Program-made: the position numbers and the translations under genes | Assembly (NCBI GenBank): GCA_030147505.1 | Contig: JASBVG010000005.1 | Span: forward strand, 1-64,000 | Direction of reading: 5' to 3' | Source of the DNA: Tardiphaga sp. | Lineage (GTDB): Bacteria; Pseudomonadota; Alphaproteobacteria; Rhizobiales; Xanthobacteraceae | Length of the DNA: 64,000 nt | Notes under the pieces: generated by a model | The model's input: the letters and a program-made list of their open reading frames with translations, nothing else | What the model was told of the DNA's origin: nothing | Database searches by the model: none | Shown here: positions 6,373 to 63,060 of the stretch, piece by piece | Layout: each line of letters starts with the position of its first letter | Position numbering within the stretch: the stretch's first letter is position 1

Positions 6373-6446
6373 TCGGCTGCGGTTGCCTCAAGGGGCCGCC
6401 CGCCGTATCACCTTCTTCTGTCATTCGCGGGCCGGCCCGGACGTTC

Positions 6447-8779: not shown

Positions 8780-8932
8780 GGCCACGGGGACAGATATGCC
8801 AGCATCCGGCCGGGATCGCCACCCGTGGAAGTGGCCCCTGTGCATTTCGGTGGTTGTTCTTCCGCGAAAAATCGGAAACAAGAACCATTAGAAGCGTTCT
8901 GAACGGGTTGGAAACGGGTCCGAGACGAAATT

Positions 8933-10591: not shown

Positions 10592-10900
10592 GTTCAGATT
10601 CGCTTTTAGGCACAAAGTCGTGAGCGGGGCGCCGGGCCAACGGCGTCCCTGTTGCTTGCAGCGTCACGATCCCGCCACACTGAGAGCGTTTGCAGGCGTA
10701 TATGGCGCAATTCGGTCGCCCGAACCTGACAGGCTCCCCTGGTGCATCTGCGCCCCCGATCCTTGCGAATGCCGGCCAAAAGCGGCATTGTCGCGCCGCA
10801 CTATGTTGCCGGGTCGGCAGCGCATTCGGGCCCGTCTCGCATTTTAGATCGCGTTTGTGCTCGAACTCCCGCCCCTGATTTTTGGAGCTAGGCGAACTTG
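10592..10900. other. Intergenic region between ETF-QO and the TPR gene
   Basis: 309 bases without a convincing gene. An imperfect hairpin at 10626-10649 (GGGGCGCCG against CGGCGTCCC, loop of 6) may end the ETF-QO transcript, though no T-run follows. A second small inverted repeat, AATGCCG/CGGCATT, lies at about 10768-10790. The remainder presumably holds the promoter of the TPR-ispE pair; no clear -35/-10 is visible. Confidence 0.4.
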
Positions 10901-12724: not shown

Positions 12725-12728
12725 TCGT

Positions 12729-25356: not shown

Positions 25357-26274
25357 ATGTCACCTGCATCCGACAAACCGCGCATGGCCGTGATTGGCCT
25401 TGGCTCCATGGGGTATGGCATGGCGCTCTCGCTCCTGCGGGAAGGCTTTGCCGTGACGGGATGTGACGTTTCCGCCGATGTCGTGAAGCGCTTTGTCGGC
25501 GAAGGCGGGCAGGGCGCCGCAACCCCGGCTGAAGCTGCCAAAGCAGCTGATGTCGTCGTCAGCGTGGTGGTCAATGCCGCGCAGACCGAGACGATTCTGT
25601 TCGGCAAGGATGGTGTCGCCGAAACTCTCGCCAGGGATGCCGCCTTCATTTCCTCCGCCACCATGGATCCTGACGTTGCGCGCCGTCTCGCCAGGCAGCT
25701 CGAAGCCACCGGCCGCCACTATCTCGATGCCCCGATCTCCGGCGGTGCCCAGCGCGCTGCGCAGGGAGAGCTTACGATCCTCGCCTCCGGCAGTGCTGCC
25801 GCCTTTGCCAAGGCGCGTCCCGCGCTCGATGCGATGTCCGCAAAGCTCTACGAACTCGGCGATGCCGCCGGGCAGGGGGCGGCGTTCAAGATGATCAACC
25901 AGCTGCTTGCCGGCGTGCATATCGCCGCAGCCTCCGAGGCGATTGCCTTCGCCGCCAAGCAGGGGCTCGATATCCGTAAAGTCTACGAGGTTATCACGGC
26001 TTCGGCGGGCAATTCATGGATGTTCGAGAACCGCATGCCGCATGTGCTCGACGGCGATTACACACCGCGCAGCGCAGTCGATATTTTCGTCAAGGATCTC
26101 GGCATCATCCAGGACATGGCGCGCACGGCAAAATTCCCGGTGCCGGTGTCGGCCGCCGCGCTGCAGATGTTCCTGATGACCTCTGCCGCCGGCATGGGCC
26201 GCGACGATGACGCATCGGTGGCACGGATGTACGCGCAAGTGACCGGGACAAAACTTCCCGGTGAGACAAAGTAG
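25357..26274 (+). CDS. ltnD: L-threonate dehydrogenase (beta-hydroxyacid dehydrogenase family)
   Basis: 305 residues from ATG 25357, which has AGGAACTGCCG upstream; the open frame runs further left across the intergenic region but is not coding there. Seen: NAD-binding VIGLGSMGYGMA at residues 12-23, substrate-binding APISGGAQRAAQG at ~125, and catalytic Lys in AAFKMINQLLAG at ~178. Oxidises L-threonate to 2-oxo-tetronate as the first step of the pathway. Followed by otnI 14 bases later and otnK overlapping, one operon. Confidence 0.85.
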   Translation: MSPASDKPRMAVIGLGSMGYGMALSLLREGFAVTGCDVSADVVKRFVGEGGQGAATPAEAAKAADVVVSVVVNAAQTETILFGKDGVAETLARDAAFISSATMDPDVARRLARQLEATGRHYLDAPISGGAQRAAQGELTILASGSAAAFAKARPALDAMSAKLYELGDAAGQGAAFKMINQLLAGVHIAAASEAIAFAAKQGLDIRKVYEVITASAGNSWMFENRMPHVLDGDYTPRSAVDIFVKDLGIIQDMARTAKFPVPVSAAALQMFLMTSAAGMGRDDDASVARMYAQVTGTKLPGETK

Positions 26275-26288
26275 TTCGGAGACCATCG

Positions 26289-27071
26289 ATGCCGCGTTTT
26301 GCCGCCAATCTCAGCATGATGTTCAACGAATACCCGTTCCTCGATCGCTTCGATGCGGCGGCAAAGGCTGGCTTCACGGCCGTCGAATTTCTCTTCCCCT
26401 ACGAACACAAGCCTGAAGACGTGGCCCTGCGTCTGAAGCGCAACGGCCTGAAGCAGGTGCTGTTCAATCTCCCGCCCGGCGACTGGAATGCCGGCGAGAA
26501 GGGCTTTGCCGCGCGTCCGGACAAATTCGACGATCTGCGCCAGAGCCTGCACACGGCGTTGCCTTATGCCGAGGCCACCGGGGTGCGCCGCCTGCACATG
26601 ATGGCAGGCCTTGCCGATCGCCACTATCCCGAAGCCGTCGATGCATTCAAGAGATCGCTCGAATGGGCAGCGGATTTTGTTGGCGATCACGGCATCGACA
26701 TCGTCATCGAGCCGATCAATGGCCGCGACGTGCCCGGCTATTTCCTCAACGATTTTACGTTCGCGCGCGGCATCATCGAGGAACTCGCGATTCCCAATGT
26801 CGGCCTGCAATTCGATATCTATCACTGCCAGATCCTGCATGGCGACGTCACCATGCGCCTGCGCGAGACGATGCCGCTGATCGGCCATATCCAGATCGCC
26901 AGCGTGCCCTCGCGCAACGAGCCTGATGGCGAGGAGCTGAACTATCCATTTCTATTCGCCGAACTGGACCGTCTCGGCTACGACAACTATGTCGGATGCG
27001 AATATCGCCCCGCCGGTGACACGGTCGCCGGCCTCGATTGGTTCAAGCCCTATGCGGGAGTGAAAGTATGA
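26289..27071 (+). CDS. otnI: 2-oxo-tetronate isomerase (hydroxypyruvate isomerase family)
   Basis: 260 residues, the length of Hyi/OtnI TIM barrels. Seen: FAANLSMMFNEYPFLDRF at the start, EFLFPYEHKPEDV, the metal-binding Glu and Asp in DIVIEPING and QFDIYHCQI, and GCEYRPAGDT near the end. It isomerises 2-oxo-tetronate to 3-oxo-tetronate before phosphorylation. Sits between ltnD and otnK with its stop overlapping the otnK start, so co-translated. Confidence 0.87.
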   Translation: MPRFAANLSMMFNEYPFLDRFDAAAKAGFTAVEFLFPYEHKPEDVALRLKRNGLKQVLFNLPPGDWNAGEKGFAARPDKFDDLRQSLHTALPYAEATGVRRLHMMAGLADRHYPEAVDAFKRSLEWAADFVGDHGIDIVIEPINGRDVPGYFLNDFTFARGIIEELAIPNVGLQFDIYHCQILHGDVTMRLRETMPLIGHIQIASVPSRNEPDGEELNYPFLFAELDRLGYDNYVGCEYRPAGDTVAGLDWFKPYAGVKV

Positions 27072-28345
27072 GCCTCGTGCTGGGCTGCATCGCTGACGAC
27101 TACACCGGCGCCTCGGATCTCGCCAATACGCTGACCCGCAACGGGCTGCGCACCGTGCAGACCATCGGCATTCCCGCCGATGATCTGAAGCTGCCTGATG
27201 TCGATGCTGTTGTGATCTCGCTCAAGAGCCGTTCGATCGAAGCAAACGCAGCCGTCGAAAAGTCGCGCGCAGCCGACAAATGGCTGCGTAGCCGCGGCGC
27301 GTTGCATGTGCTCTTCAAGATCTGCTCGACCTTCGATTCCACCGACAAGGGGAATATCGGTCCGGTCATGGATGCGCTGCGCAGCGAGGCCGGTGACAAC
27401 ATCGTGCTGGTCACGCCGGCTTTTCCGGAGACCGGGCGCACCGTCTATCAGGGCAATCTGTTCGTCGGCGCGGCGCCGCTGAACGAGAGCCCGTTGAAGC
27501 ATCACCCGCTCAATCCGATGCATGATTCCAATCTCGTGCGCGTACTGGCGCGGCAGAGCGGGACCAATATCGGTCTGGTCGATCTCGGGATTGTTGCAAG
27601 CGGCGCCGATGTGATGCGCTCGCATCTCGATGGATTGTCGGAGAACGGTTTTGGTGCCGCGATCGTCGATGCCGTATTCGCGAAGGATCTGGAAACCATT
27701 GGGGCTGTTGCGCTCGATCATCGTGTGTCTGTCGGTGCCTCCGGTCTCGGCCTTGGTCTCGCGCGCGGCCTCGTCGCATCGGGCCGTGTGAAGACGGCGA
27801 ACGCCACGTCGATGGCTGACAAGCCGGTCGGCGGTGCGGCCGCATGTCTTGTCGGAAGTTGCTCGCAGGCGACGCTGCAGCAGATTGCGCGTGCGGAGCG
27901 GACGATGCCGGTGCTGCATCTCGATGCCGAACGGGTCATCGCTGACAAGAACGAGGCCCAGCGCGCGATCGCTTGGGCGAAAGAGCATCTCGGCAAAGGC
28001 CCGCTCCTGATCGCCAGCAGCTCCACGCCCGATCAGGTTGCGCAGCTGCAGAAGCGCCATGGGCGCGAGGCTGCCGGGCATGCCATCGAACAGGCCATGG
28101 CCGATCTCGCCGAAGCGTTGGTGGACGCCGGCGTTCGGCGGCTGGTCGTGGCCGGGGGCGAGACGTCCGGCGCCGTGGTGGATCGGCTCGGCATTCCCGG
28201 CTTCCTGGTCCGGGCGGAAATCGCGGCCGGTGTTCCGGTTCTTCGCGCCGTAGGGGCCGCGCAGGGCGAGATGGTGCTCGCGCTCAAGTCGGGAAATTTC
28301 GGGGGGACCGATTTCTTTGCCGATGCGCTCAGGCTGATGCCGTAA
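27068..28345 (+). CDS. otnK: 3-oxo-tetronate kinase (DUF1537 family)
   Basis: 425 residues from ATG 27068, ATGA overlap with otnI. Two-domain DUF1537 kinase: N-terminal CIADDYTGASDLANTL with the substrate-binding Asp residues, ICSTFDSTDKGNIGP, and the C-terminal nucleotide domain with VVAGGETSGAVVDRLG at about residue 362. Phosphorylates 3-oxo-tetronate at the 4-hydroxyl. This family was assigned by the work that defined otnK, otnC, otnI and ltnD, so the order here supports the call. Followed by a 437-base gap. Confidence 0.9.
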   Translation: MSLVLGCIADDYTGASDLANTLTRNGLRTVQTIGIPADDLKLPDVDAVVISLKSRSIEANAAVEKSRAADKWLRSRGALHVLFKICSTFDSTDKGNIGPVMDALRSEAGDNIVLVTPAFPETGRTVYQGNLFVGAAPLNESPLKHHPLNPMHDSNLVRVLARQSGTNIGLVDLGIVASGADVMRSHLDGLSENGFGAAIVDAVFAKDLETIGAVALDHRVSVGASGLGLGLARGLVASGRVKTANATSMADKPVGGAAACLVGSCSQATLQQIARAERTMPVLHLDAERVIADKNEAQRAIAWAKEHLGKGPLLIASSSTPDQVAQLQKRHGREAAGHAIEQAMADLAEALVDAGVRRLVVAGGETSGAVVDRLGIPGFLVRAEIAAGVPVLRAVGAAQGEMVLALKSGNFGGTDFFADALRLMP

Positions 28346-50447: not shown

Positions 50448-50524
50448 CGGAGTGTGGCTCAGCCCGGTAGAGCACTGCGTTCGGGACGCAGGGGTCGCAG
50501 GTTCGAATCCTGCCACTCCGACCA
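50448..50524 (+). tRNA. tRNA-Pro (anticodon CGG)
   Basis: A full cloverleaf: acceptor CGGAGTG (50448-50454) pairs with CACTCCG (50514-50520), discriminator A, and CCA encoded at 50522-50524. The anticodon stem CTGCG/CGCAG surrounds the loop TTCGGGA, anticodon CGG at 50482-50484, decoding CCG. T-loop GGTTCGAATCC is canonical. No variable-arm anomaly. A T-rich stretch (GATTTTTTGG) follows about 20 bases on. Confidence 0.97.
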
Positions 50525-51221: not shown

Positions 51222-51569
51222 TCAGTCGTGCAGCCGCTTGCGATAGGCGATCGGGTCCATGTCGCGGACATCGACGCTGAGGCTTTTGGTTTGCGGCAGC
51301 AGAGCGGCCATAGTCTCGCGCAGCGACTCGCTGACGGCGATCTTCTGCGCCGGCGTTCGGCCTTCGAGCATGTAGACCGAGACATGGCAAAAACCGTTCT
51401 TCTCCCGCGCCACCAGATAATCTGAAAACGCCGTCGCTCGGACCTTGATGTCCGCCGCTTTCATCGCGCCGGTGTCGGCGGCGGTGTCATGCAGGGCTTC
51501 CATGAGTCTGCTGACGTCGAGCAGGCCGCCATGGCCGTCGCTGGAATATTCGATGACGAGATGCGGCAT
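51222..51569 (-). CDS. 5-carboxymethyl-2-hydroxymuconate isomerase-like protein
   Basis: 115 residues of the CHMI family (HpaF), a small trimeric isomerase related to tautomerases. Pro2 (Pro1 after Met loss) in MPHLVIEYS is the catalytic base; the conserved YMLEGRTPAQK follows. CHMI acts on the homoprotocatechuate ring-cleavage product, so a role in ring-cleavage catabolism is likely, but no ring-cleavage dioxygenase is in the window. Last gene of a minus-strand unit after reductase and IclR. Confidence 0.85.
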   Translation of the reverse strand: MPHLVIEYSSDGHGGLLDVSRLMEALHDTAADTGAMKAADIKVRATAFSDYLVAREKNGFCHVSVYMLEGRTPAQKIAVSESLRETMAALLPQTKSLSVDVRDMDPIAYRKRLHD

Positions 51570-51587
51570 GGACGTTTCCCCGATCGG

Positions 51588-52373
51588 TCAGAGCAGCAGC
51601 GGTTTCACTGTCGCCGCTGCGTCACGCAGCAGCGGCAGGAAGCGGTCGATCATTTCGCCAGTGGACACGCGGTCAACATGGGCGCCCATGTTGATCGCGG
51701 CGACGATGGCGTCATCATAGCGCCGCACCGGCACCGAGATCGAGCGGAAACCCGGCTCGGCCTCGCGATCCACCAGCGAATAACCTTTTTCGCGATCGGT
51801 GATGATAGCGGCCTTGAGCGATTCCCTGTCGGTTACCGTGAACGGCGTCATCGCCGTCAGCGTCATCGTATCGAGAATGTCCGTCAATTCCTCGTTCGAA
51901 TATTTGCCGAGCATCGTGCGGCCGACCGAGGAGCAATAAGCGGGGAGACGATAGCCGAGATCGATGCCGGCTGAAAACACCCGCGCCGGACTCGCGCGCG
52001 CGACGAAGATCACGTCATTGCCTTGCAGCACGGCGAGCGAAGAGATTTCCTGCGCATCGCTGGAGATCTGGTCGAGCACCGGCTGCAGGATGGTGACGAT
52101 CTGGTTGGACGTCATGTAGGAGCCGGCCAGCGCCAGCACCTGCGGCGTCAGCGCGAACAGTTTGCCGTCGCTTGCCACGTAACCGCGATGCTCCAGCGTG
52201 AACAGGATGCGCCGGGCGGTGGCGCGCGGCAGATCCGCGGCCTTGGCGACATCGCTGAGTGTCATCGGTCGCGACTGACCGCCGAACAGTTCGAACACGC
52301 GCAGGCCGCGATCGAGGCTTTCGATGAAGTCGGTATTGCCGCGTTCCTCGTCGGACCGCTTGATCTTGGGCAT
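51588..52373 (-). CDS. IclR family transcriptional regulator (PcaR/PcaU-like)
   Basis: 261 residues. N-terminal winged helix (LDRGLRVFELFGGQSRPMTLSDVAKAADLPRATARRILFTLEHRGYV), then the effector-binding GAF-like domain, with YCSSVGRTMLGKYSNEEL and GYSLVDREAEPGFRSISVPV. The PcaR/PcaU/PobR subfamily responds to aromatic acids. It is between the reductase and CHMI genes and is the only regulator near the Rieske operon, so it most likely controls both. Palindromes in the divergent promoter region are its candidate operators. Confidence 0.9.
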   Translation of the reverse strand: MPKIKRSDEERGNTDFIESLDRGLRVFELFGGQSRPMTLSDVAKAADLPRATARRILFTLEHRGYVASDGKLFALTPQVLALAGSYMTSNQIVTILQPVLDQISSDAQEISSLAVLQGNDVIFVARASPARVFSAGIDLGYRLPAYCSSVGRTMLGKYSNEELTDILDTMTLTAMTPFTVTDRESLKAAIITDREKGYSLVDREAEPGFRSISVPVRRYDDAIVAAINMGAHVDRVSTGEMIDRFLPLLRDAAATVKPLLL

Positions 52374-52384
52374 GCGGTGTCCGC

Positions 52385-53608
52385 CTATTTCCCCGCCTCG
52401 AACTTCTTCAGGTCGAAGCCGAGGTCGGCGGCCTGTTCCGGCGTCGGCGAGAGCGATGCAGTGATCAGGCGACGTGCGATCATCTGGTCGCCCGGTTTGT
52501 TGATGCTGTCCACGGCCGTCAGCTTGCCGTCCCGATAATAGAAGATCGAGAACTTGCCTTCTTTCATGTCACCGCGGACCACCGCTGTATCCGTCGGCGC
52601 GGAGAGACCGACGATCTGCAGCTTGGCGTCGTATTGATCGGACCAGAAGCGTGGCACCGCGTCATAGGCTTCCGGTTTGCCGGCGATCATGCATCCTGCA
52701 GCCTTGCCCTGGTCTGTGGCGTTCTGCACGGCTTCGAGCCGCACGCGGCGGCCGGCAAAGGAGTTGTGGTGATTGCTGACGTCGCCCGCCGCATAGATGT
52801 TCGCTGCCGAGGTGCGGCCGTGCTCATCGACATCGATGCCGTTGGCGCTCGTGATGCCGGCCTGCACGGCAAGCTCGTCATTGGCGATGCCGCCGATGCC
52901 GGCGACGATGAGATCGGCGCGCACGCGCAGGCCGCTGGAGGTGACGACCTCATGCGCGGCGCCAGAGCCTTCGATGGCAACGACGGATTCGTTGAAGCGG
53001 ATATCGACGCCGTGTGCACGATGGATGTCGAGCAGGAATTGCGAGATCAGCGGCGACACCGCGCGCTCCAGCAGGCGCGATTGCGCTTCAATCAGAGTCA
53101 CCTTCTTGCCGGTCTTGGCGGCGGTGGAAGCGACTTCGAGGCCGATGAAGCCGCCGCCGACGATCACGACGTCCTGCGCTGCTCCGAGGCGGGGCTTGAG
53201 CGTCAGCGCGTCATCGAGCGTGCGCAGATAGACAATGCCGTCGCGCTCATGGCCGGGCACGCTGAGGCGCCGCGCGCGCGAACCGGTGGCAATGACGAGC
53301 GAGTCGAACGGCAGACTGTCGCCGCCTTCGAGCTTGATACGACCGGCTGCGCGATCGAGTTCGATAGCGCGATGGCCGAGCACCATCTCGATGCCCTGGC
53401 CCTTGAAGTAATCGTCGCCGCGCAGGAACAGACTGTTATGCGCGAGATCGCCGGACAGGAAGGCCTTCGATAGCGGCGGGCGCTGATAGGGCAAATGAAT
53501 TTCATCCGCGACAATGCGGATCGGCTCCTGATAGCCTTTCTCGCGCGCGCTGATGCCCGCCTGCACGCCTGCGTAGGAGGCGCCGACAATGACGAGGCCA
53601 TTGCTCAT
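52385..53608 (-). CDS. Ferredoxin reductase (FAD-dependent pyridine nucleotide-disulphide oxidoreductase)
   Basis: 407 residues from ATG at 53606-53608. FAD motif VIVGASYAGVQAG at residue ~6, LPYQRPPLSK, the NAD motif VVIVGGGFIGLEVAS at ~150, IYAAGDVSNHHN and a C-terminal reductase_C domain with WSDQYDAKLQIVG. This is the ferredoxin-NAD reductase class (RhoR/HcaD-like) that feeds Rieske oxygenases through a ferredoxin. Probably the electron donor for the oxygenase encoded divergently; no ferredoxin gene is seen in the window. A longer start at 53710 crosses the operator region and is unlikely. Confidence 0.9.
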   Translation of the reverse strand: MSNGLVIVGASYAGVQAGISAREKGYQEPIRIVADEIHLPYQRPPLSKAFLSGDLAHNSLFLRGDDYFKGQGIEMVLGHRAIELDRAAGRIKLEGGDSLPFDSLVIATGSRARRLSVPGHERDGIVYLRTLDDALTLKPRLGAAQDVVIVGGGFIGLEVASTAAKTGKKVTLIEAQSRLLERAVSPLISQFLLDIHRAHGVDIRFNESVVAIEGSGAAHEVVTSSGLRVRADLIVAGIGGIANDELAVQAGITSANGIDVDEHGRTSAANIYAAGDVSNHHNSFAGRRVRLEAVQNATDQGKAAGCMIAGKPEAYDAVPRFWSDQYDAKLQIVGLSAPTDTAVVRGDMKEGKFSIFYYRDGKLTAVDSINKPGDQMIARRLITASLSPTPEQAADLGFDLKKFEAGK

Positions 53609-53912
53609 GGGCGTGCTCCCGCGGGCCGATCGGTCCGCAATTTCAAAGTCTTCGTCATCATCAGCTCCTGATATCTGTCCGTATATTGAACAACTGTTCG
53701 CTCCTCGCAAGATGATCTGGTGAGCGGAAATTGCTGCACATGCTCAATAACCGGGCGATCCAAGCTGCAAAATTCTGCTTGCTTAGAATTAGTCAAACGC
53801 TAAAATTCGTACATAAGTTCAATAGACGAACAAGAGCTGTTCAAAGCTGACTTCGCTCACGAGGTCGAAGCGCTTCGGTCAAATCGAGCACAACGAGGAA
53901 AGGTCCAGCGCC
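53609..53912. promoter_or_regulatory. Divergent promoter region with GAACA/TGTTC palindromes
   Basis: 304 bases, no coding frame with start and binding site. Dyads: GAACA-N2-TGTTC at 53688-53699, GTTC-N7-GAAC at 53817-53831 and GAACA-N5-TGTTC at 53828-53842. The first, in reverse complement, resembles the last two (CGAACA...TGTTCAA). They are placed near both divergent starts, as expected for operators of the IclR regulator next door. The binding protein is inferred, not shown. Confidence 0.5.
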
Positions 53913-55280
53913 ATGATGAGCCAAGAGCAGAACGACCTGATCACCCGCATCGGGCCCAAGGCGCCTGCAGGCAAGCTGATGCGCATGTATTGGCAGCCCG
54001 CTGCGCTCACCGCCGAACTCGAAGGCGAACGCCCGATCCGTCCGGTGCGTCTCCTCGGCGAGGATTTTGTGATTTTCCGCGATGAGCAGGGCCGCTATGG
54101 CCTGCTTGATCGCGACTGCCCGCATCGTGGCGCCGATCTCGCTTTCGGCCGTCTCGAAGGTAGCGGCGTGCGCTGCGCCTTCCATGGCTGGCTGTTCGAT
54201 GTCGAGGGCAAGTGTCTGGAGACGCCGGCCGAACCGAAGAATTCGCGCCTCTGCCAGGGCATCAGGCAGCGCGCTTATCCCGTGGTCGAGAAGGGCGGCA
54301 TCCTGTGGGCCTATCTTGGCGAAGGCGAGCCGCCGGCTTTCCCGGAAATCGACTGCTTTGCTGCGCCCGAACAATACACCTTCGCATTCAAGGGCCTGTT
54401 CGAATGCAACTGGCTGCAGGCGCTGGAGGTCGGCATCGATCCGGCCCATGCCTCGTTCCTGCATCGCTTCTTCGAGGACGAGGACGTCAAGGCATCCTAT
54501 GGCAAGCAATTCCGCGGCGCCTCGGCCGGCACGGAAGTGCCGATGACCAAGATCTTGCGTGAATATGATCGCCCGATCATCAATGTAGAATCCACCGAAT
54601 ACGGCCTGCGCCTGATTGCGCTGCGCGAGCTGGACGAGGAGCGCACCCATGTGCGCGTCACCAATCAGCTCTTCCCGCATGGCTTCGTCATTCCCATGAG
54701 CTCGGAAATGACCATCACCCAGTGGCATGTGCCGCTGGATGACGAGAACTGCTACTGGTATGCGATCTTCACCAGCTACACCAAGCCGGTGGACAAGAAG
54801 AAGATGACTGACCAGCGGCTCGAGCTCTATGAGCTGCCAAACTACACCTCGCGCAAGAACAAACGCAACGATTACGGCTTCGATCCGCACGAGCAGAAAC
54901 ACGAGACCTACACGGGCATGGGTGCCGACATCAATGTCCACGACCAGTGGGCGGTGGAGTCCATGGGCAAGATCCAGGATCGCACCCGCGAGCATCTCGG
55001 ACAGAGCGACAAGGCGATCATCGCCTATCGCAAGCTGCTCCGTGCCGAGATCGAGAAGGTTGCCGGCGGCCAGAAGCCGCTGCTGTTTCTCGACGCGGAC
55101 AGTGCGCGTAGTATTCAGGGGCCGGGCACCATGGACGGCATCGGGCCGAGCAAGGGCTGGGAGACCTACTGGATGGAGGTCGATGTCGCCCGCCGCCGCG
55201 GCGCGCCGTGGATGGCGCCGGTGCCGGCCGATCAGACCGAGCCGGGTTCGAATGTCGTTCATCTGCCGGCAGCAGAGTAA
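53913..55280 (+). CDS. Rieske-type aromatic ring-hydroxylating oxygenase, large subunit
   Basis: 455 residues. Rieske 2Fe-2S ligands are C69/H71 and C88/H91 (DRDCPHRGADLAFG and CAFHGWLFD). The mononuclear iron triad fits D176-x2-H179-x4-H184 in GIDPAHASFLH, with the bridging acidic residue upstream. Length and motif order resemble phthalate 4,5-dioxygenase-type oxygenases. It hydroxylates an aromatic or similar compound with electrons from a ferredoxin/reductase. No small subunit gene follows; such large subunits often act as homotrimers. First gene of the operon; GGAAAGG precedes the ATG. Confidence 0.9.
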   Translation: MMSQEQNDLITRIGPKAPAGKLMRMYWQPAALTAELEGERPIRPVRLLGEDFVIFRDEQGRYGLLDRDCPHRGADLAFGRLEGSGVRCAFHGWLFDVEGKCLETPAEPKNSRLCQGIRQRAYPVVEKGGILWAYLGEGEPPAFPEIDCFAAPEQYTFAFKGLFECNWLQALEVGIDPAHASFLHRFFEDEDVKASYGKQFRGASAGTEVPMTKILREYDRPIINVESTEYGLRLIALRELDEERTHVRVTNQLFPHGFVIPMSSEMTITQWHVPLDDENCYWYAIFTSYTKPVDKKKMTDQRLELYELPNYTSRKNKRNDYGFDPHEQKHETYTGMGADINVHDQWAVESMGKIQDRTREHLGQSDKAIIAYRKLLRAEIEKVAGGQKPLLFLDADSARSIQGPGTMDGIGPSKGWETYWMEVDVARRRGAPWMAPVPADQTEPGSNVVHLPAAE

Positions 55281-55307
55281 GTTTCAAGCGATCCGCGGGA
55301 GAGTGCG

Positions 55308-56744
55308 TTGAGTTTCGTTGAACGTCACGGTTTGTGGTCCGCGGAGCAGAAGGAAGCGGCGAAGCGGTTGCGTGCCATTGTCGAGGAGCAGAAGCTGGAA
55401 GTGATCCGGTTGTCGTTTCCCGACCAGCACGGCATTCTCAGAGGCAAGACGCTGATCGCGAGCGAGGCACTGCGCTGCCTCGAAAGCGGCTGCTCCATCA
55501 CTACGACGATGTTTGCCAAGGACACGTCTCACAAGACCGTGTTTCCGGTGTTCACTGCCGGTGGCGGTTTTGGCATTCCGGAGATGCAGGGCGCAGCCGA
55601 CGTGCTGATGATTCCTGATCCCTCTACTTTCCGCGTGCTACCATGGGCGCCGGAAACGGGCTGGATCCTGTGCGACGTGCATTTCGCCGACGGCCGTCCG
55701 GTGCCTTTCGCGACACGAAACCTGTTCAAGAAGGTGCTCGGCGAGCTCGAAACCCGCGGCTACGATTTCATCGCCGGCCTCGAAGTCGAGTTTCACATCT
55801 TCCGCGTCGAGAACGAGCGGATGCAGCCGGAAGATGCCGGCCAGCCTGGCAATCCTCCCGAAGTCAGCCTGCTCTCGCATGGCTACAATTATCTCACCGA
55901 GCAGCGCTACGATCAGATGGAGCCTGTGCTGGAGATCATCCGGCGGGACGTGCTTGCGCTCAATCTCCCGTTGCGCTCGGTGGAGGTCGAATATGGCCCA
56001 AGCCAGTGCGAATTCACGTTCCAGCCTACGGTTGGCCTGACGCCGGCTGACAGCATGGTCCTGTTCCGCAGTGCTGTGAAGCAGATCGCGCATCGCCACG
56101 GCTATCACGCAACCTTCATGTGTCGGCCGAAGATTCCGAATGTGGTGTCATCAGGCTGGCACCTGCATCAGTCGCTGGTGTCGCGGGCGACCGGGACGAA
56201 TGCCTTTATGGCAACCGAGGGTGTGGACCCGCTGTCGCCTTTCGGCCGTGGCTATCTTGCCGGCCTGCTCGCACATGCGCGCGCGGCGACGGTGTTCACC
56301 ACGCCGACGATCAACGGTTACAAGCGCTATCGCTCGTATTCGCTCGCGCCGGATCGTGCGATCTGGGGCAGGGACAATCGCGGCGCGATGCTGCGCGTGC
56401 TGGGCGGGCCAAATGATCCCGCCACACGTATCGAGAATCGCGTCGGCGAGCCCGCCGCGAATCCGTATCTCTATATGTCGTCGCAGATTCTCTCTGGCCT
56501 TGATGGCGTCGATCGCAAGCTCGATCCCGGCCCTTCCGCCGATACGCCTTACGAGACCAATGCCGATCTGTTGCCGAAGTCGCTGCGTGAGGCGACTTTC
56601 GCACTGAAGGAAGACCCGTTTTTCCGCGAGAAGATGGGTGCGACCATGGTCGACTATTATACGCACATCAAGAATGCTGAAATCGATCGTTTCCAGGCGG
56701 AGGTTTCCGACTGGGAGCAGCGCGAATATTTCGAAATGTTCTGA
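55308..56744 (+). CDS. Glutamine synthetase-like ligase (gamma-glutamylamide synthetase type)
   Basis: 478 residues, TTG start with GGGAGAG upstream. GS-fold motifs: Glu pair in GLEVEFHIF (157-165), EVEYGPSQCEF (226-235), SSGWHLHQSL (281-290, catalytic His), the Arg region in NGYKRYRSYS (336-345) and RIENRVGEPAANPYLYM (374-390). The usual adenylylation Tyr region is absent. Similar proteins glutamylate amines such as aniline or isopropylamine rather than ammonia. The oxygenase gene precedes it, so the substrate is likely an amine-bearing compound. Exact amine unknown. Confidence 0.85.
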   Translation: MSFVERHGLWSAEQKEAAKRLRAIVEEQKLEVIRLSFPDQHGILRGKTLIASEALRCLESGCSITTTMFAKDTSHKTVFPVFTAGGGFGIPEMQGAADVLMIPDPSTFRVLPWAPETGWILCDVHFADGRPVPFATRNLFKKVLGELETRGYDFIAGLEVEFHIFRVENERMQPEDAGQPGNPPEVSLLSHGYNYLTEQRYDQMEPVLEIIRRDVLALNLPLRSVEVEYGPSQCEFTFQPTVGLTPADSMVLFRSAVKQIAHRHGYHATFMCRPKIPNVVSSGWHLHQSLVSRATGTNAFMATEGVDPLSPFGRGYLAGLLAHARAATVFTTPTINGYKRYRSYSLAPDRAIWGRDNRGAMLRVLGGPNDPATRIENRVGEPAANPYLYMSSQILSGLDGVDRKLDPGPSADTPYETNADLLPKSLREATFALKEDPFFREKMGATMVDYYTHIKNAEIDRFQAEVSDWEQREYFEMF

Positions 56745-56850
56745 ACCGCGACGATGGCGCGCACCCGCCGTCGTTGCGGCGATATCCGGCACGTTTATTG
56801 AATGCATAACCGCGACTTCAAGGTTTCGGTCACACAGGGGGACAACCAGA

Positions 56851-58026
56851 ATGACAAGAATGAGCCGTTCGATACTTGCACTGGCAATCATGGGCGCGAT
56901 GACCGGTACCGCATCCGCCGACGTCATCAAGGTCGGCATCATCGGCACCATGTCGGGGCCGTATTCGCTGTTTGGCAAGAACTTCAAGATGGGCATCGAT
57001 GCCTGGATTGCTGAGAACGGCAACAAGGTCGGCAATCACACCGTCGAATTCGTCTATCGCGACGAGGAGGCACCGAATCCGGCGAAGTCGAAGGCGCTGG
57101 CGCAGGAGCTGCTGGTCAAGGACAAGGTGCAATATCTCGCCGGCGTCTATTTTACGCCCAATGCGATGGCCATCGCGCCGCTGCTCGAGGAGTCCAAAAC
57201 GCCGCTGATCGTGATGAACGCAGCGACTTCGGCCATCGTCGAAAAGAGCCCCTATATCGTCCGCACCTCCTTCACCATGTGGCAGAACACGGTGCCGGCG
57301 GCGAAGGTCGCGTTCAAGAATGGCGCGAAGAAAGTCGCAATCGCCGTCAGCGATTACGGCCCGGGCATCGATGCCGAAGCGGCGTTCAAGAAGACCTTTG
57401 AAGGCGAGGGCGGTACCGTCGTCGAGGCGATCCGCATTCCGCTCGCCACCACCGATTTCAGCCCGATCATGCAGCGTATCAAGGACGCCGGCGCCGACAT
57501 GATCTTCACCTTCCTGCCCGCGGGGCCGCCGACCCTCGGTTTCGTGAAGGCCTATATCGACAACGGCCTGAAGGCCGGCGGCGTCAAGCTGATGTCCACG
57601 GGCGACGTGGTCACCGAGCCGGACCTTCCGAATATCGGCGATTCCGGTATCGGCATCCTGTCGACATATCACTATGCAGTCTCGCACGACTCAAAGGAAA
57701 ACGCTGCATTCCTCGCGCAGCTCAAGAAGGGCGGCGCCAGCACGGATGAGGTAACCATGACCTCGGTGGCTGCCTATGACGGCGCCCGCCTGATCTACAA
57801 GATGATCGAGGCTACCGACGGCAAGCGCGATCCGGCCAAGGCCGTGGATGCCGTGAAGGACATGAAGTGGGTGAGCCCGCGTGGTCCGGTGTCGATCGAT
57901 CCGGCCACCCGGCATATCCGCCAGAACGTTTATCTGCGCAGTGTTGCCAAGGTGGACGGCAAGCTGATCAACAAGGAAGAGCAGACCTTTGCCGATCAGC
58001 CTGACTGGGCGCTCAGCAAGCAGTAA
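56851..58026 (+). CDS. HAAT-type ABC transporter substrate-binding protein
   Basis: 391 residues from ATG 56851, preceded by GGGGGAC. Signal peptide MTRMSRSILALAIMGAMTGTASA. Mature part is the type I binding fold (VGIIGTMSGPYSLFGKNFKMG, YRDEEAPNPAKSKALAQELLV, YFTPNAMAIAPLLEES, FSPIMQRIKDAGADMIFTF). Ligand probably resembles the Rieske/GS substrate. It differs in sequence from the protein at 19895. A hairpin follows at 58039-58074 before the amidohydrolase gene. Confidence 0.9.
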   Translation: MTRMSRSILALAIMGAMTGTASADVIKVGIIGTMSGPYSLFGKNFKMGIDAWIAENGNKVGNHTVEFVYRDEEAPNPAKSKALAQELLVKDKVQYLAGVYFTPNAMAIAPLLEESKTPLIVMNAATSAIVEKSPYIVRTSFTMWQNTVPAAKVAFKNGAKKVAIAVSDYGPGIDAEAAFKKTFEGEGGTVVEAIRIPLATTDFSPIMQRIKDAGADMIFTFLPAGPPTLGFVKAYIDNGLKAGGVKLMSTGDVVTEPDLPNIGDSGIGILSTYHYAVSHDSKENAAFLAQLKKGGASTDEVTMTSVAAYDGARLIYKMIEATDGKRDPAKAVDAVKDMKWVSPRGPVSIDPATRHIRQNVYLRSVAKVDGKLINKEEQTFADQPDWALSKQ

Positions 58027-58038
58027 GGCATAGCCACT

Positions 58039-58074
58039 CCGAGGCGCGTACGGCGCCGGCCGCATGCGCCTCGG
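58039..58074 (+). promoter_or_regulatory. Intercistronic hairpin after the substrate-binding protein gene
   Basis: CCGAGGCGC (58039-58047) and GCGCCTCGG (58066-58074) pair perfectly around an 18-base loop. No T-run follows, and the next gene is in the same direction. Such hairpins often protect the 3' end of the binding-protein message so that it is made in excess. Inferred from position. Confidence 0.5.
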
Positions 58075-58097
58075 AATCTCGAAATGTTAAATTCCAT

Positions 58098-59729
58098 ATG
58101 AATCGCGTCGTGCCTTCCATCCTCCTCACCAATGGCCGTATCTATCGTTCCGCCTGGGACGAAGCTCCCGCGGACAGCATTGTCGTCAGCGACGGCAAGG
58201 TGATCTGGACCGGCGCCGCAGATGGCGCTCCGGCTGCCGACGAGACTATTGATCTCGATGGCCGAACGGTCATTCCCGGTCTCACCGACGCACATATTCA
58301 TCTCTTCGCGATCGCCCATGCCCGCCTGCAGGTGCCGGTGACCCCGCGCGATGCACCGACCGTCGGTGCTGTTCTGGCGCTGCTCGTGAAACGCGCCGAC
58401 GACATCCCGGCCGACAAATGGGTGCTTGGCGCAGGCCTCGACGAGAATGGTCTCGCCGAACACCGGCTGCCTACGCGCGCCGAGATCGACGCCGCCATTC
58501 CCGATCATCCCGTGCTGATCCGCCGTTTCTGCGGCCATGTCGCCGTCGTGAACAGCATGGCGCTCAGGCTGCTCGGCATCGATGACAGAATCGCCGATCC
58601 TGAAGGCGGCACCTTTAGCCGTACCGCCGCGGGCGCCCTGGATGGCTGCGCCAAGGAAAGCGCGGCCGAACTGATTTTTCGCGCCGCACCGCCGATGGAT
58701 CGGGGCGAGCTGATCGCCGCCTTGCGGGCGACCATCGCCGATAGCGCGCGGATGGGCCTTGTGGCGGCTGTGGAAGCCGCGGTGGGCTTCACGGTTGGCT
58801 TTGATGACGAATTCGCGATCTGGAACGAGTTGCGTAAAGGCGGCGACGTGCCAATGCGCCTTGGCTTCATGAATCAGCTCGATCCTGATGAAGCCGTCGC
58901 GCGCGGACTCGTGCCATCGCAAGATACCGATTGGCAGTCCATGAGCCTGAAATATTTTGCGGATGGCATCGTCGGCGCACGCACCGCTGCCGTCAGCGAG
59001 GATTATGCGGATATGCCGAGCCGCGGCTTCTTCATGCGCGACGAGGCCGAGCTGCAGCGTGTGATCGGCCAGGCGCAGGCCGCGGGCTGGCAGGTCGCCG
59101 TGCATTGCTGCGGCGACCGTGCCACGGACTGCGTCATCGATGCCTATGAGAAGGCCCAGATTGCGCATCCACGGGCCGATATGCGCCACCGCATCGAGCA
59201 CTATTTCGTCCCGCCGGAAGGCGGACTGATGCGTATGAGGACGCTGGGGGCTCTGGTTGTCACCCAGCCGAGTTTCCTTACCCGCATGCGCCGCTCCATC
59301 GCCGGCGCCTTCGGCGCGCGCGCTGATCGCTGCTATCCCGGTCGCTCGGTGATCGACGCCGGTGTGACCTATATCGCCAGTTCGGATGCGCCGACCGGTT
59401 CGTGGTCTCCATGGGACGGCATCGGGGATGCTGTCGGTCGTGCATCCGATGACGGCCCGGCGATCGGGGAAGGCGAGGCCGTGAACGTGCGTGAGGCGAT
59501 CCACAGCTACACAGTGGGTGGCGCCATCGCTATGAAGCAGGAGCATTGGCGTGGCACGCTGGTGCCCGGCATGGCTGCCGACCTGATCGCGCTCGATCGT
59601 GACCCTTTCAATTCAGATGCCGCTTCGTTGAAATCGATACAGGTGTTACTCACCATGGTGCGTGGTGCCGTCGTCCATGACGCCATGTCGCAGCACGGCG
59701 AATGGCGTCTGGCAGCGCGTTTGGCATAG
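58098..59729 (+). CDS. YtcJ-type metal-dependent amidohydrolase
   Basis: 543 residues, amidohydrolase superfamily of the YtcJ/NfdA group. Metal-binding HxH in GLTDAHIHLFA at ~57, later His in HCCGDR at ~338 and RHRIEHYFV at ~359, and the Asp in SSDAPTGSW at ~434. N-terminal strand ILLTNGRIYRSAW is typical. These enzymes hydrolyse amide or imide bonds (N-substituted formamides, amides) but substrates vary. It may release glutamate or an amine from the pathway intermediate; this is inferred only. Situated between the binding protein and the permeases. Confidence 0.87.
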   Translation: MNRVVPSILLTNGRIYRSAWDEAPADSIVVSDGKVIWTGAADGAPAADETIDLDGRTVIPGLTDAHIHLFAIAHARLQVPVTPRDAPTVGAVLALLVKRADDIPADKWVLGAGLDENGLAEHRLPTRAEIDAAIPDHPVLIRRFCGHVAVVNSMALRLLGIDDRIADPEGGTFSRTAAGALDGCAKESAAELIFRAAPPMDRGELIAALRATIADSARMGLVAAVEAAVGFTVGFDDEFAIWNELRKGGDVPMRLGFMNQLDPDEAVARGLVPSQDTDWQSMSLKYFADGIVGARTAAVSEDYADMPSRGFFMRDEAELQRVIGQAQAAGWQVAVHCCGDRATDCVIDAYEKAQIAHPRADMRHRIEHYFVPPEGGLMRMRTLGALVVTQPSFLTRMRRSIAGAFGARADRCYPGRSVIDAGVTYIASSDAPTGSWSPWDGIGDAVGRASDDGPAIGEGEAVNVREAIHSYTVGGAIAMKQEHWRGTLVPGMAADLIALDRDPFNSDAASLKSIQVLLTMVRGAVVHDAMSQHGEWRLAARLA

Positions 59730-59737
59730 GATCAATC

Positions 59738-60607
59738 ATGCGCACTATTTTCAGCATCATGACCGACGCCGTCGCTTACGGGATGGTGCTGTTCATCATT
59801 TCCATTGGCCTGTCGATCATGATGGGTCTGATGCGCGTGGTGAATCTTGCTCATGGCGCCTTCGCGATGATCGGCGGCTATCTTGCCTCTTATGCGCTCC
59901 GCGATCTCGGTGTGCACTATGGCGTCGCCATTCTGATCGCGGTACTAGGCGCCATCGTTGCCTCGATCCCGTTCGAGCTGCTGCTGTATCGCCGCATCTA
60001 CCGCAAGGCCGATCCCTTGATACAGGTGCTGATGACTATCGGTATCACTTTCCTTATCATTGGCGTGGTCAACGGGATCTTCGGTCCCTCGCTGAAGCCG
60101 ATCCCGCTGCCGCAGACCCTGAGCGGTCCGCTCGATATCGGCTTCCGCATGCTGCCGACGCACCGCGTCTTCGTCATTGCCTGCGGCATTGTGGTGGCGC
60201 TGGCGCTCTGGTTGCTGATCGAGAAGACAGAATTCGGCATCAAGCTGCGTGCGTCCGTCGATCACAGCGGCATGGCCGATGCGCTCGGCATCCGCACCGA
60301 GATCATCTATGCCGCGACCTTCGCCCTCGCCATCGGCCTCGGTGCCTTCGGCGGCGTGGTCGGCGCGGAAATCCTGCCGATCGAACCCTTCTATGCGCTC
60401 CGCTATATGGTGACGTTTCTCGTCGTCGTCTCCGTCGGCGGCGCCGGCTCGATCCTCGGCGCGCTGTCGGCATCGCTGCTGCTCGGCCTGGCGGACACGA
60501 CCGGAAAGTATCTCGCGCCGGAATTTGGCGATTTCTTCTTCTATCTGTCGGTGATCGTCATCGTGTTTCTGTTCCCGCATGGCCTGTTCGGCAAGGCACA
60601 CGCATGA
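59738..60607 (+). CDS. livH: HAAT ABC transporter permease (LivH type)
   Basis: 289 residues from ATG 59738, 8 bases after the amidohydrolase stop. LivH features: MRVVNLAHGAFAMIGGYL near residue 30, and about eight membrane segments. Forms the channel with the LivM-like subunit. The first 12 codons of the longer frame are unlikely because they overlap the amidohydrolase gene. Overlaps livM by 4 bases. Confidence 0.9.
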   Translation: MRTIFSIMTDAVAYGMVLFIISIGLSIMMGLMRVVNLAHGAFAMIGGYLASYALRDLGVHYGVAILIAVLGAIVASIPFELLLYRRIYRKADPLIQVLMTIGITFLIIGVVNGIFGPSLKPIPLPQTLSGPLDIGFRMLPTHRVFVIACGIVVALALWLLIEKTEFGIKLRASVDHSGMADALGIRTEIIYAATFALAIGLGAFGGVVGAEILPIEPFYALRYMVTFLVVVSVGGAGSILGALSASLLLGLADTTGKYLAPEFGDFFFYLSVIVIVFLFPHGLFGKAHA

Positions 60608-61605
60608 GCGAGATCGCTATGACCCATGTTCCGAACAAGCGCAGCGTTCCGTTCGCTCGGGAAGCGGGTGGCGCGCTCGCTATCATGGTACTCGGCGCCA
60701 TCGGCTATTTTCTCTATCCGGATGATCTTGCTTTCCTGACGCGCTTGATCGGGATTGCCTTCCTCGTGCTGTCGCTCGATCTCGTCACCGGCTATTGCGG
60801 CGTTGCCACGCTTGGCCATGCCGCACAGTTCGGCGTCGGCGCCTATGCTGCCGGCATCGCCTGTATCCGTGGCGTCACCGATCCCGTCGCGCTGCTAGCC
60901 ATCGGTCTCGTGGCCGGCACGGTGATGGGTCTCATCTCGGGTGCTTTGATCACGCGCTTTCGCGGGTTGCCGCAGCTCGTACTGTCCATCGCGGTCGGTC
61001 AACTTGTTGCCAGTCTCGCCAACAAACTCTCGTGGCTCACCGGCGGCAGCGACGGCTTGTCGGGCATCGCGCCTGGCAAGGTCTTCGGCATCTTCGGCTT
61101 CGACATGTATAGCCGCACGGCCTTCCTGTTCTCGCTCGGCGTGCTCGTCATCACTTTCGTCGTTCTCCAGCGTTTTGTTCGCTCGCCCTTCGGCCTGATG
61201 TGTCGTGGTATCAAGGATGACGATCTGCGTGCGAAGATGATCGGCGTCTCGATCTATCCGCGTCTTGTCGCGATGTATGGCGTCGCCGGTGCGGTTGCGG
61301 GTATCGGCGGCGCGCTGACGGCGATTTCGACCGGAGTCGTCGGTCTCGACAGTGTCAGCTTCGAGCGTTCCGCCGAAGTGCTGGTGATGCTGGTGCTCGG
61401 TGGCGCCGGTCACCTGTGGGGGGCGCTGGCCGGCACGGTGATCTTCATGATCTTCGAGCATATCGTAGCGGCCGCCAACCCATATCACTGGATGACCCTT
61501 GTTGGTCTTCTGCTCATCCTCATCGTTGTATTCGCACCTCGCGGTCTGGTCGAGCCGGCGCTGTCGCTCTGGGCAAAGTTCAAGCGCAGGGAGGGGCTGG
61601 CATGA
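60604..61605 (+). CDS. livM: HAAT ABC transporter permease (LivM type)
   Basis: 333 residues from ATG 60604 (ATGA overlap with livH). LivM motifs: TGYCGVATLGHAAQFGVGAYAAG near residue 65, and AISTGVVGLDSVSFE in the second half; about nine membrane segments. The N-terminal 25 residues are longer than in the other cassette. Overlaps livG by 4 bases. Confidence 0.9.
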   Translation: MSEIAMTHVPNKRSVPFAREAGGALAIMVLGAIGYFLYPDDLAFLTRLIGIAFLVLSLDLVTGYCGVATLGHAAQFGVGAYAAGIACIRGVTDPVALLAIGLVAGTVMGLISGALITRFRGLPQLVLSIAVGQLVASLANKLSWLTGGSDGLSGIAPGKVFGIFGFDMYSRTAFLFSLGVLVITFVVLQRFVRSPFGLMCRGIKDDDLRAKMIGVSIYPRLVAMYGVAGAVAGIGGALTAISTGVVGLDSVSFERSAEVLVMLVLGGAGHLWGALAGTVIFMIFEHIVAAANPYHWMTLVGLLLILIVVFAPRGLVEPALSLWAKFKRREGLA

Positions 61606-62366
61606 CGGATCTCCTCGAAGCGCGCGCTGTCTCCCGCTCTTTCGGCGGTTTGCACGTGACGCGGGACGTCAATTTCAAGCTCGCCTCCGGCGATCGCGTT
61701 GCGCTGATCGGCCCGAATGGCGCGGGCAAGACGACATTGGTGAACCTGATCACCGGTGACATTGCGCCGAGCGAAGGCCAGTTCTACATGGGTGGTGACG
61801 ATATCACCCGGCTCAGCATCCCGGAGCGTGTTCGTCGCGGTCTCGTGCGCACGTTCCAGACGACGCGGCTGTTTGCCAATCTGACCGTCGCCGACAATGT
61901 TGCGCTGGCGATCATGCAACGCAGACGCATCAGCCGTCGGTTCTTCTCCAGCTCGACGGAGCTGCCTGAAGTGAAGGCCGAATGGAACGAGATTCTCGCC
62001 CATCTCGGCCTCGACCATCTCGCTTATCGCAAGGTGATCGAACTCGCTTATGGCCAGCAACGTCTGATCGAGCTCGCCATCGGTTTGGCGTTACACCCGA
62101 AAGTTTTGCTGCTAGACGAGCCGGCGGCCGGTGTGCCGCATGACGAGGCGCCAAAAATCCTCGATGCCATCAATCGCCTCCCATCCGACATCGCGGTGCT
62201 GATGATCGAGCATGACATGGATCTGGTATTCAAATTCGCCAAGCGCGTGCTGGTGCTGGCCGCCGGTCGGCTGATCTTTGAAGGATCGCCCACCGAGGTC
62301 ACCGCCGATCACGAAGTGCGCCGCGCCTATCTCGGGAGCTATGCCGATGCCCGCCACAGCGCTTGA
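61602..62366 (+). CDS. livG: HAAT ABC transporter ATP-binding protein (LivG type)
   Basis: 254 residues. Walker A GPNGAGKTTLVN at ~37, VRRGLVRTFQTTRLFANLTVADNV, Walker B VLLLDEPAAGVP and switch His in IEHDMDLVF. The ABC signature reads LAYGQQRLIELAIGLAL, with LSGGQ as AYGQQ, as in other LivG proteins. One ATPase of the importer. Overlaps livM and livF. Confidence 0.9.
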   Translation: MTDLLEARAVSRSFGGLHVTRDVNFKLASGDRVALIGPNGAGKTTLVNLITGDIAPSEGQFYMGGDDITRLSIPERVRRGLVRTFQTTRLFANLTVADNVALAIMQRRRISRRFFSSSTELPEVKAEWNEILAHLGLDHLAYRKVIELAYGQQRLIELAIGLALHPKVLLLDEPAAGVPHDEAPKILDAINRLPSDIAVLMIEHDMDLVFKFAKRVLVLAAGRLIFEGSPTEVTADHEVRRAYLGSYADARHSA

Positions 62367-63060
62367 GATCCGGAATCTCCGCGCCGGCTACGGGCCGACG
62401 CGCATCATCGAAGACATCTCGTTCATCATCAGCGCAGGCGACCGCTTGGCCGTGCTCGGCCGCAATGGCATGGGCAAGACCACGCTGCTGGCGACCCTAA
62501 TGGGCCTGACCACTTGCCACGGCGGCGAAATTCGGTTTGGCGATCAGGACATTGCCGGCCGCCGCACGTCGATGCGTGCCGAACTCGGCATCGGTTATGT
62601 GCCGCAGACGCGCGACATCTTCGCTTCGCTGACGGTCGAAGAGAATTTACGCGCCGGGCTCAAGGGGCGGCCGCTCTCGGCGCTGGATGAAGCCTATGCG
62701 ATGTTCCCGCGCCTGCGCGAGCGCCGTGGCAATTTCGGCAAGCAGCTCTCCGGCGGTGAACAGCAGATGCTGTCCATGGCCCGCACGCTGCTCGGCAAGC
62801 CGTCGATCCTGTTACTTGACGAGCCGCTCGAGGGCCTGGCGCCGGTGATCTGCGACGAATTGATGGCCATGCTGGTGAAGCTCGCCGCCACCGGCGAGAT
62901 GACCATCATTCTGGTTGAACAGCAGATCGAACGCGCGCTCGACTTTGCGAACAGCGTCATGGTGATGGAACGCGGGCGCACGAGCTGGACCGGAACGCCC
63001 GAGACGTTGAAGAGCGATCACGGGTTGATCGACCGTCTGGTCGGTGTCGGCATTCATTGA
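62347..63060 (+). CDS. livF: HAAT ABC transporter ATP-binding protein (LivF type)
   Basis: 237 residues from ATG 62347, which has GGGAG eight bases upstream; ATG 62341 is too close to that site. Walker A GRNGMGKTTLLA, signature LSGGEQQMLSMARTLL and Walker B ILLLDEPLEGLAP are intact, and GYVPQTRDIFASLTVEENL fits LivF. Overlaps the livG end by 20 bases. Last gene of the operon. Confidence 0.88.
   Translation: MPATALEIRNLRAGYGPTRIIEDISFIISAGDRLAVLGRNGMGKTTLLATLMGLTTCHGGEIRFGDQDIAGRRTSMRAELGIGYVPQTRDIFASLTVEENLRAGLKGRPLSALDEAYAMFPRLRERRGNFGKQLSGGEQQMLSMARTLLGKPSILLLDEPLEGLAPVICDELMAMLVKLAATGEMTIILVEQQIERALDFANSVMVMERGRTSWTGTPETLKSDHGLIDRLVGVGIH

Follow-up and report, generated by a model that had tools for sequence, protein, structure and literature searches.

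A sad-type Rieske oxygenase and glutamine synthetase-like ligase locus with its own importer in Tardiphaga sp.: a candidate route for the breakdown of 4-aminobenzoate

Which compound is a bacterium equipped to degrade when a Rieske oxygenase gene, a glutamine synthetase (GS)-like ligase gene and an importer stand together? The question is raised by a gene cluster at positions 51222-63060 of a 64,000-nucleotide stretch of Tardiphaga sp. DNA (assembly GCA_030147505.1, contig JASBVG010000005.1, positions 1 to 64,000), called the window below, which is part of one contig (C37) of a 6.2 Mb genome. The cluster consists of two divergent units, of which the minus-strand one encodes an FAD ferredoxin reductase, an IclR regulator and a CHMI-like tautomerase, and the plus-strand one a Rieske oxygenase, a GS-like ligase, a binding protein, a YtcJ-type amidohydrolase and the importer components livHMGF. 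A preliminary description, made from the sequence alone, had seen here a catabolic-looking locus for a nitrogen-bearing aromatic compound built on the Rieske-GS pair, and the present analysis supports that view. It is highly probable that the substrate of the locus is an acidic aromatic amine, which would be gamma-glutamylated and then attacked by the Rieske oxygenase, and the balance tilts slightly towards a sad-type module with its own importer whose main substrate is 4-aminobenzoate (PABA). An acidic para-amino aromatic, PABA best of all, is suggested because of a lysine in the ligase pocket, a binding protein resembling PDB entry 4evs, and the scarcity of pabB in genomes that bear the pair. 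Locus, genome and contig numbers (prefixed L, G and C) are our own.

A described relative is the sad operon of Hydrogenophaga intermedia PBC, identified when transposon mutants were screened for the initial deamination, in which sadA encodes a 4-aminobenzenesulfonate 3,4-dioxygenase, sadB a glutamine synthetase and sadC a ferredoxin; it was kept in all Hydrogenophaga genomes reported at that time, and its authors suspect a natural substrate resembling 4-aminobenzenesulfonate while leaving the substrate itself open (PMC5632844; this and the other papers are cited by PubMed Central accession, from excerpts). The earlier view that no described pathway fits the locus therefore needs tempering, the sad operon being such a relative, but the excerpts searched of the open-licence PubMed Central literature indeed held no assignment of this precise gene arrangement, in which importer, amidohydrolase and isomerase join the pair. 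The window shares with the sad operon a Rieske gene, here of the alpha-only kind, and immediately behind it a GS-like gene that belongs to the sad subgroup, and no amidotransferase is named for the operon in the excerpts of PMC5632844. The Hydrogenophaga Rieske-GS loci collected here are probably the sad operon itself, with Rieske proteins 53-58% identical to that of the window; each of the 10 Hydrogenophaga-labelled genomes, picked as carriers, holds one copy 80-100% identical to the H. aromaticivorans Rieske protein, G458 having a second at 63%. Moreover, sad-type GS ligases form one group (33 of 33) in a FastTree tree, with weak support (0.39). Whereas the sad operon has a separate ferredoxin and GntR control (PMC5632844), the window has an IclR regulator and adds its own HAAT importer with a binding protein of the 4-hydroxybenzoate-binder type, a CHMI-like protein and an amidohydrolase. 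Since a ferredoxin gene is absent from the cluster, we call it a variant of the sad type rather than a sad operon. An amidotransferase gene was not seen in the locus either, one 37% homologue of a Polaromonas amidotransferase lying elsewhere (C132:30173); its lack is no mystery, because the sad operon is also without one.

Another relative is found on plasmid pSA3 (L070) of Novosphingobium resinovorum SA1, a degrader of 4-aminobenzenesulfonate (sulfanilate) (PMC5632844). Its Rieske protein is 78% and its GS-like protein 70% identical to those of the window, a CHMI gene follows the GS gene, and a reductase gene and a C-terminal fragment of an IclR gene are present; it differs in carrying genes for a ferredoxin and a maleylacetate reductase as well as insertion sequences, and a HAAT importer was not seen in the stretch read. 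Near this cluster the plasmid also holds copies of folP and two biotin genes (5726-6556 and 25683-27580), folP encoding dihydropteroate synthase, an enzyme that uses PABA. The top PDB matches of the window Rieske protein are LigXa-type O-demethylases and phthalate dioxygenases, which share its LigXa C-terminal domain and alpha-only organisation; they are, however, far more distant (best E 1.6e-67) than the sad-type relatives, and a GS-like neighbour was seen for none of them here.

The cluster is no chance assembly, since the Rieske gene is kept in 17 of 17 same-genus relatives (83-98% identity, with a partial match in G004). Close Rieske relatives (E < 1e-170) occur in 9 further genomes among the 61 searched, and a sample of the phylum gave a match at E <= 1e-120 in 21 of 398 genomes. 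Five same-genus neighbourhoods (L040-L044) hold the same gene set, except that the main amidohydrolase was not seen in L044. The reductase, binding protein and LivM matches of L044 are each split over two frames, and the cluster there may be decaying or the assembly may contain errors; in L041 (10629-12245) and L043 (7630-9237) a second amidohydrolase gene, its product 30-31% identical to that of the window, lies between the Rieske and reductase genes.

A search of Rieske-GS neighbourhoods across genomes, as the preliminary description had proposed, covered 114 loci, namely 28 of 45 pair-bearing genomes (the window's own excluded), 6 of 44 matching plasmid records and, from a search with four aligned proteins of mainly betaproteobacterial origin that gave at least 544 loci, the best 80; the set was selected by Rieske matches and is Burkholderiales-heavy, and its counts describe the set, not all bacteria. 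The GS-like gene directly follows the Rieske gene in 109 of these loci; among the five exceptions it is nearby and non-adjacent in L062, L071 and L074, none lies within the stretch of L046, and L150 ends at a contig edge. Further matches across the set are to a 2Fe-2S ferredoxin (61 loci), GntR (36), IclR (20) and CHMI (9), and the Rieske residues kept in at least 97% of the 114 aligned sequences include C69, H71, C88, H91, D176, H179 and H184. In Polaromonas JS666 the cluster runs from Rieske and GS genes through ferredoxin and FAD reductase genes to a HAAT importer, with an amidotransferase gene at its end; box genes (BoxC, benzoate-CoA ligase, BoxA) lie near the pair in some relatives, namely four loci of genus g45 and, for BoxA, L045; and TRAP transporters or other HAAT sets accompany it in other lineages. 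In L071 (Nitratireductor pOM-1, 8555-13359) identity to the window reaches 81% for the Rieske protein and 52% for the GS-like protein, the latter encoded in a divergent unit, which hints at an exchange of partners.

The ligase bears on the kind of substrate. Its closest solved structure is NpaA1 (8wwu, E 1.4e-141), in which E232 and E234 make up the amine site and a hydrophobic entry loop, V68-M81, has F75 at its bottleneck (PMC11335346). When the window ligase was aligned with 107 ligases of the collected loci (five loci with shorter GS matches omitted), the pocket loop aligned gap-free and the amine-binding Glu pair is kept in 108 of 108 (E226 and E228 in the window, matching E232 and E234); all 108 have Lys where NpaA1 has F75 (K71 in the window), and position 80 is Arg or Lys in 106. 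A further sad-type ligase, from Novosphingobium RL4, has Lys at the F75 position as well, which is occupied by Phe in 8, His in 1, Val in 1 and Lys in 0 of 10 other ligases, NpaA1 among them, hand-picked from 49 plasmid records. The match to the GS paralogue of the window's own genome begins past the loop and leaves the pocket position uncovered, and the solved GS structures aligned to the ligase are gapped at the loop or begin past it. With its Glu pair and amine-pocket N-terminal loop, the window ligase falls by sequence among the glutamyl-organic-amine synthases (GoaS), and it is predicted to gamma-glutamylate an aromatic amine; read from the alignment, a lysine instead of an aromatic residue at the amine entry would suit a substrate that bears an acid group.

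The importer bears on it too. Its binding protein shares 83.5% identity with PDB 4evs and 82.7% with 4f06, both 4-hydroxybenzoate complexes from R. palustris, the former of RPA0985; together with livHMGF it makes up what appears to be a HAAT importer of the 4-hydroxybenzoate type. PABA differs from 4-hydroxybenzoate in having NH2 in place of OH. In 18 of 18 genomes of the genus the best 4evs match (78-85%) shares a contig with the Rieske gene, at a distance of at most about 7 kb, the next-best matches being at 42-47%, and in L051, L065 and L073 the pair likewise has a HAAT importer next to it. RPA0985 shows a melting shift of 29.5 °C with 4-hydroxybenzoate (PMC3223731) and is listed as a proven binder of that compound (PMC6079105). 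The likeness of the window protein to RPA0985-type binders consists in the identity to 4evs, and a ligand of this kind is predicted for it. The earlier suggestion that the importer points to a polar nitrogen compound is thereby sharpened, in that the importer is informative but points to a para-substituted benzoate rather than to any such compound, given the 4evs and 4f06 likeness (PMC3223731).

A third line of evidence concerns PABA supply. R. palustris is reported to be without the enzymes to make 4-aminobenzoate (PMC6191541), and H. intermedia PBC depends on PABA (PMC5632844). In the 61-genome set, pabB exceeded its cut-off in none of the 27 genomes with the pair and in 15 of the 34 without it (Fisher p 3.6e-5), or, counted by genus, in 0 of 10 against 15 of 34 (Fisher p 0.009), in a comparison that was post hoc, exploratory and counted by eye, with genomes that are non-independent and kinship ignored. 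In the phylum sample of 398 genomes the same contrast was 3 of 21 against 164 of 377 (p 0.011), and at least two TrpE/PabB-like matches were present in 4 of 21 against 311 of 377 (p 2e-9). A family-stratified exact test of pair against pabB, which left out genus g45 (7 of 9 genomes lacking) and genus g8 (incomplete genome), gave a one-sided p of 0.0008, and the control gene bioB was not depleted (by genus 5 of 10 against 14 of 34, p 0.72). The scarcity of pabB fits a link to PABA and is no proof of one, for pair-bearing genomes without pabB may produce PABA by another route. The frequent absence of pabB also led us to consider the pair as a PABA-making system, an idea that was dropped in view of the deaminating action of sad operons and of the reported PABA requirement of R. 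palustris.

The preliminary description had made its reading depend on the two units being co-regulated, and this looks likely, as both matches of one operator-like pattern sit between them. The pattern, GTTCNATANNCGNAC, has exactly 2 matches in 64,000 bases where 0.01 would be expected, a figure to be read in the light of the pattern's having been devised after viewing the region and with a view to the PcaR box, which the GTTC-type site resembles. The IclR protein exceeds the cut-off of the PcaR/PcaU/PobR subfamily model (see the table), and the 350 bp ahead of the Rieske gene contain GTTC-N7-GAAC in 14 of the 20 IclR-linked loci and in 2 of the other 94; in L041 and L043, two of the six IclR-linked exceptions, the inserted amidohydrolase gene displaces the site. 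The two matches between the units and the palindrome in IclR-linked loci favour co-regulation, which fits a shared control of the divergent units by the IclR regulator. An operator shared with the pca genes did not emerge, GTTC-N7-GAAC not being found in two stretches around pcaH (L160, L161).

In the proposed route, a para-substituted benzoate would be taken up by the HAAT importer, and the GS-like ligase would spend ATP to link its amino group to the gamma-carboxyl of glutamate, with K71 holding the acid group of the ring. The Rieske oxygenase, probably drawing electrons from the reductase and a 2Fe-2S ferredoxin encoded elsewhere, would then oxidise the amide-bearing carbon and its neighbour, so that the nitrogen would depart together with its glutamyl moiety and a catechol would remain, which for PABA would be protocatechuate. 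Protocatechuate would enter the beta-ketoadipate pathway, while the PcaR/PobR-like IclR regulator would act on the sites between the units, its presumed targets. A pcaH gene scoring above cut-off, next to a pcaG-like one, is present in the genome, and protocatechuate would thus have an outlet; for a LigA-type protocatechuate 4,5-dioxygenase there was no match in the own genome, but the control genomes gave none either, so that this negative carries no weight. Since CHMI-like homologues lie near the pair in 9 of 114 loci (directly after the GS gene in L055, L061 and L070), the CHMI-like protein is an accessory, which may act on ring-cleavage products as the preliminary description had proposed; an amidohydrolase match beside the pair is confined, among the loci read, to those of the genus.

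The same machinery could have a different main substrate, such as 4-aminobenzenesulfonate, 3-aminobenzoate, anthranilate or an aminophenylalkanoate, a possibility that is unlikely and yet retains appreciable weight, considering that sad operons act on 4-aminobenzenesulfonate (PMC5632844), that the pSA3 copy belongs to a sulfanilate degrader, and that a 3-hydroxyanthranilate 3,4-dioxygenase gene, a point telling against PABA, follows the pair and adjoins the sad-type GS gene in L058 (7428-7970, NF009763 276 bits) and L059 (about 12000-13500). These two loci and the varied neighbours suggest that the substrate may differ between lineages; in L058, genes for a TRAP transporter come after the dioxygenase gene. 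For the window, the kinship of the binding protein to 4-hydroxybenzoate binders and the protocatechuate dioxygenase of the genome speak for PABA over these amines, and conservation throughout the genus makes a compound found in nature likelier than an intermediate of dye manufacture. Quite unlikely is a division of labour in which the importer and regulator are there for 4-hydroxybenzoate or another phenolic acid of that kind, while the Rieske-GS pair merely adjoins them and has a task of its own: strong 4-hydroxybenzoate binding by RPA0985 (PMC3223731), the TRAP or other HAAT transporters of other lineages and the restriction of the amidohydrolase to genus loci would agree with it, but in 18 of 18 genomes of the genus the binding protein gene has remained near the Rieske gene, both units are flanked by operator-like sites, and HAAT importers adjoin the pair in L051, L065 and L073 too. 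An aniline-type pathway for simple, non-acidic anilines, for which NpaA1 as the closest solved ligase could be cited, is very improbable indeed and was rejected. The operons for aniline, chloroaniline and 1-naphthylamine (atd, tdn, dca, npa) resemble the window in that a GS-like ligase glutamylates the amine before a Rieske oxygenase acts (PMC11335346); they differ in having a type 1 amidotransferase, alpha and beta subunits and, in the operons read far enough, an FNR-type reductase, with F or V and not Lys at the pocket. The aniline-type operons of pLME1, PBL-H3 and YBL2 carry genes for GS, type 1 amidotransferase, alpha, beta and FNR-type reductase (the L183 operon was read as far as the beta gene), which agrees with the contrast drawn in the preliminary description; in the window no type 1 amidotransferase or beta gene lies beside the GS and alpha genes, the reductase is of the ferredoxin type, and the amine pocket has a lysine in place of an aromatic residue.

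Several further points weigh against PABA as the main substrate. The importer argument depends on 4evs being RPA0985, and 4-hydroxybenzoate, the known ligand, carries no amine. The main text of PMC3223731, as far as excerpted, does not mention aminobenzoates, PABA included. Gentisate-pathway genes lie near many Burkholderiales copies of the pair, a second TrpE/PabB-like gene is present in 4 of the 21 pair-bearing genomes from the phylum sample and passes the pabB cut-off in three of these, and a 2Fe-2S ferredoxin gene was not seen in the window locus, candidates lying elsewhere (C72:47329, 52%; C30:29463, 45%). Furthermore, the PABA model leaves the roles of the CHMI-like protein and the amidohydrolase unexplained; R. 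palustris did not grow photoheterotrophically on 4-acetamidobenzoate alone (PMC6191541), a finding that makes this compound a less plausible source from which the amidohydrolase would release PABA.

The features of the cluster are collected in the table. Every gene named in the preliminary description was found as an open frame at its given position, with family support for all except livH, which was read from its translation. Judging from translations and spacing, some of the frames listed there begin too early, and starts at 53608 (reductase), 56851 or 56860 (binding protein), 60604 (LivM), 61602 (LivG) and 62347 (LivF) are likelier. The top NCBIfam match of the reductase is AndAa, below cut-off, and its top PDB match is 3fg2 (E 1.5e-94); an NCBIfam scan of the CHMI-like protein gave no match.

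Features of the cluster at positions 51222-63060 of the window
Feature	Position	Strand	Remarks
CHMI-like tautomerase, 115 aa, N-terminal Met-Pro	51222..51569	-	PF02962 52.9 bits, cut-off 26.5
IclR regulator, PcaR/PcaU/PobR subfamily, 261 aa	51588..52373	-	TIGR02431 307.6 bits, cut-off 284.75
FAD ferredoxin--NAD reductase, AndAa/putidaredoxin-reductase type	52385..53608	-	Pyr_redox_2, Reductase_C; frame open to 53710
Operator-like site GTTCAATATACGGAC	53677..53691	-	69 bp upstream of likely reductase start
Operator-like palindrome GTTCAATAGACGAAC	53817..53831	+	Upstream of Rieske gene
Rieske oxygenase, LigXa/phthalate-dioxygenase type, alpha only, 455 aa, sadA-like	53913..55280	+	PF00355, PF19301
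GS-like ligase, 478 aa, TTG start, sadB-like	55308..56744	+	PF00120 271 bits
HAAT periplasmic binding protein, 4-hydroxybenzoate-binder type	56851..58026	+	Start 56851 or 56860; 4evs/4f06 identity
YtcJ-type amidohydrolase (Amidohydro_3)	58098..59729	+	PF07969 296.7 bits
LivH-like permease	59702..60607	+	Translation and matches in other loci, no family-library scan; start uncertain
LivM-like permease	60604..61605	+	PF02653; start inferred
LivG-like ATPase	61602..62366	+	PF00005, PF12399; start inferred
LivF-like ATPase	62347..63060	+	PF00005; start inferred

About 700 bases ahead of the cluster lies a tRNA-Pro (CGG) gene (50448-50524), the sole tRNA gene found in the window; a recent mobile island at this gene is made unlikely by the presence of the Rieske gene in all 17 same-genus relatives and by a window-like base composition. 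A second livFGMH-like set lies about 4 kb past the importer on the opposite strand (L066 6753-9921, corresponding to about 66753-69921 of G000:C37).

An assignment of PABA catabolism to such a Rieske-GS pair was not recognised among the papers that searches of the open-licence PubMed Central literature listed, and a review of aromatic amine degradation mentions 4-aminobenzoate, in the excerpts available, in aniline degradation only (PMC4539516). A wider reading, possible and distinctly tentative, is that the sad-type pair across alpha- and betaproteobacteria constitutes a dedicated PABA-consuming pathway from which sulfanilate degraders borrowed, and that its keepers tend to have dropped PABA synthesis, importing PABA as vitamin and food through one transporter. 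A named candidate substrate, a mutable pocket lysine, an importer with solved relatives and a candidate operator together make the natural substrate of the sad enzymes a testable question. If PABA is indeed the substrate, the pathway would explain where sulfanilate degraders obtained their enzymes and would add an oxidative sink for a vitamin precursor shared among microbes, one that would sit in organisms reported to need PABA from outside, such as R. palustris (PMC6191541) and Hydrogenophaga (PMC5632844).

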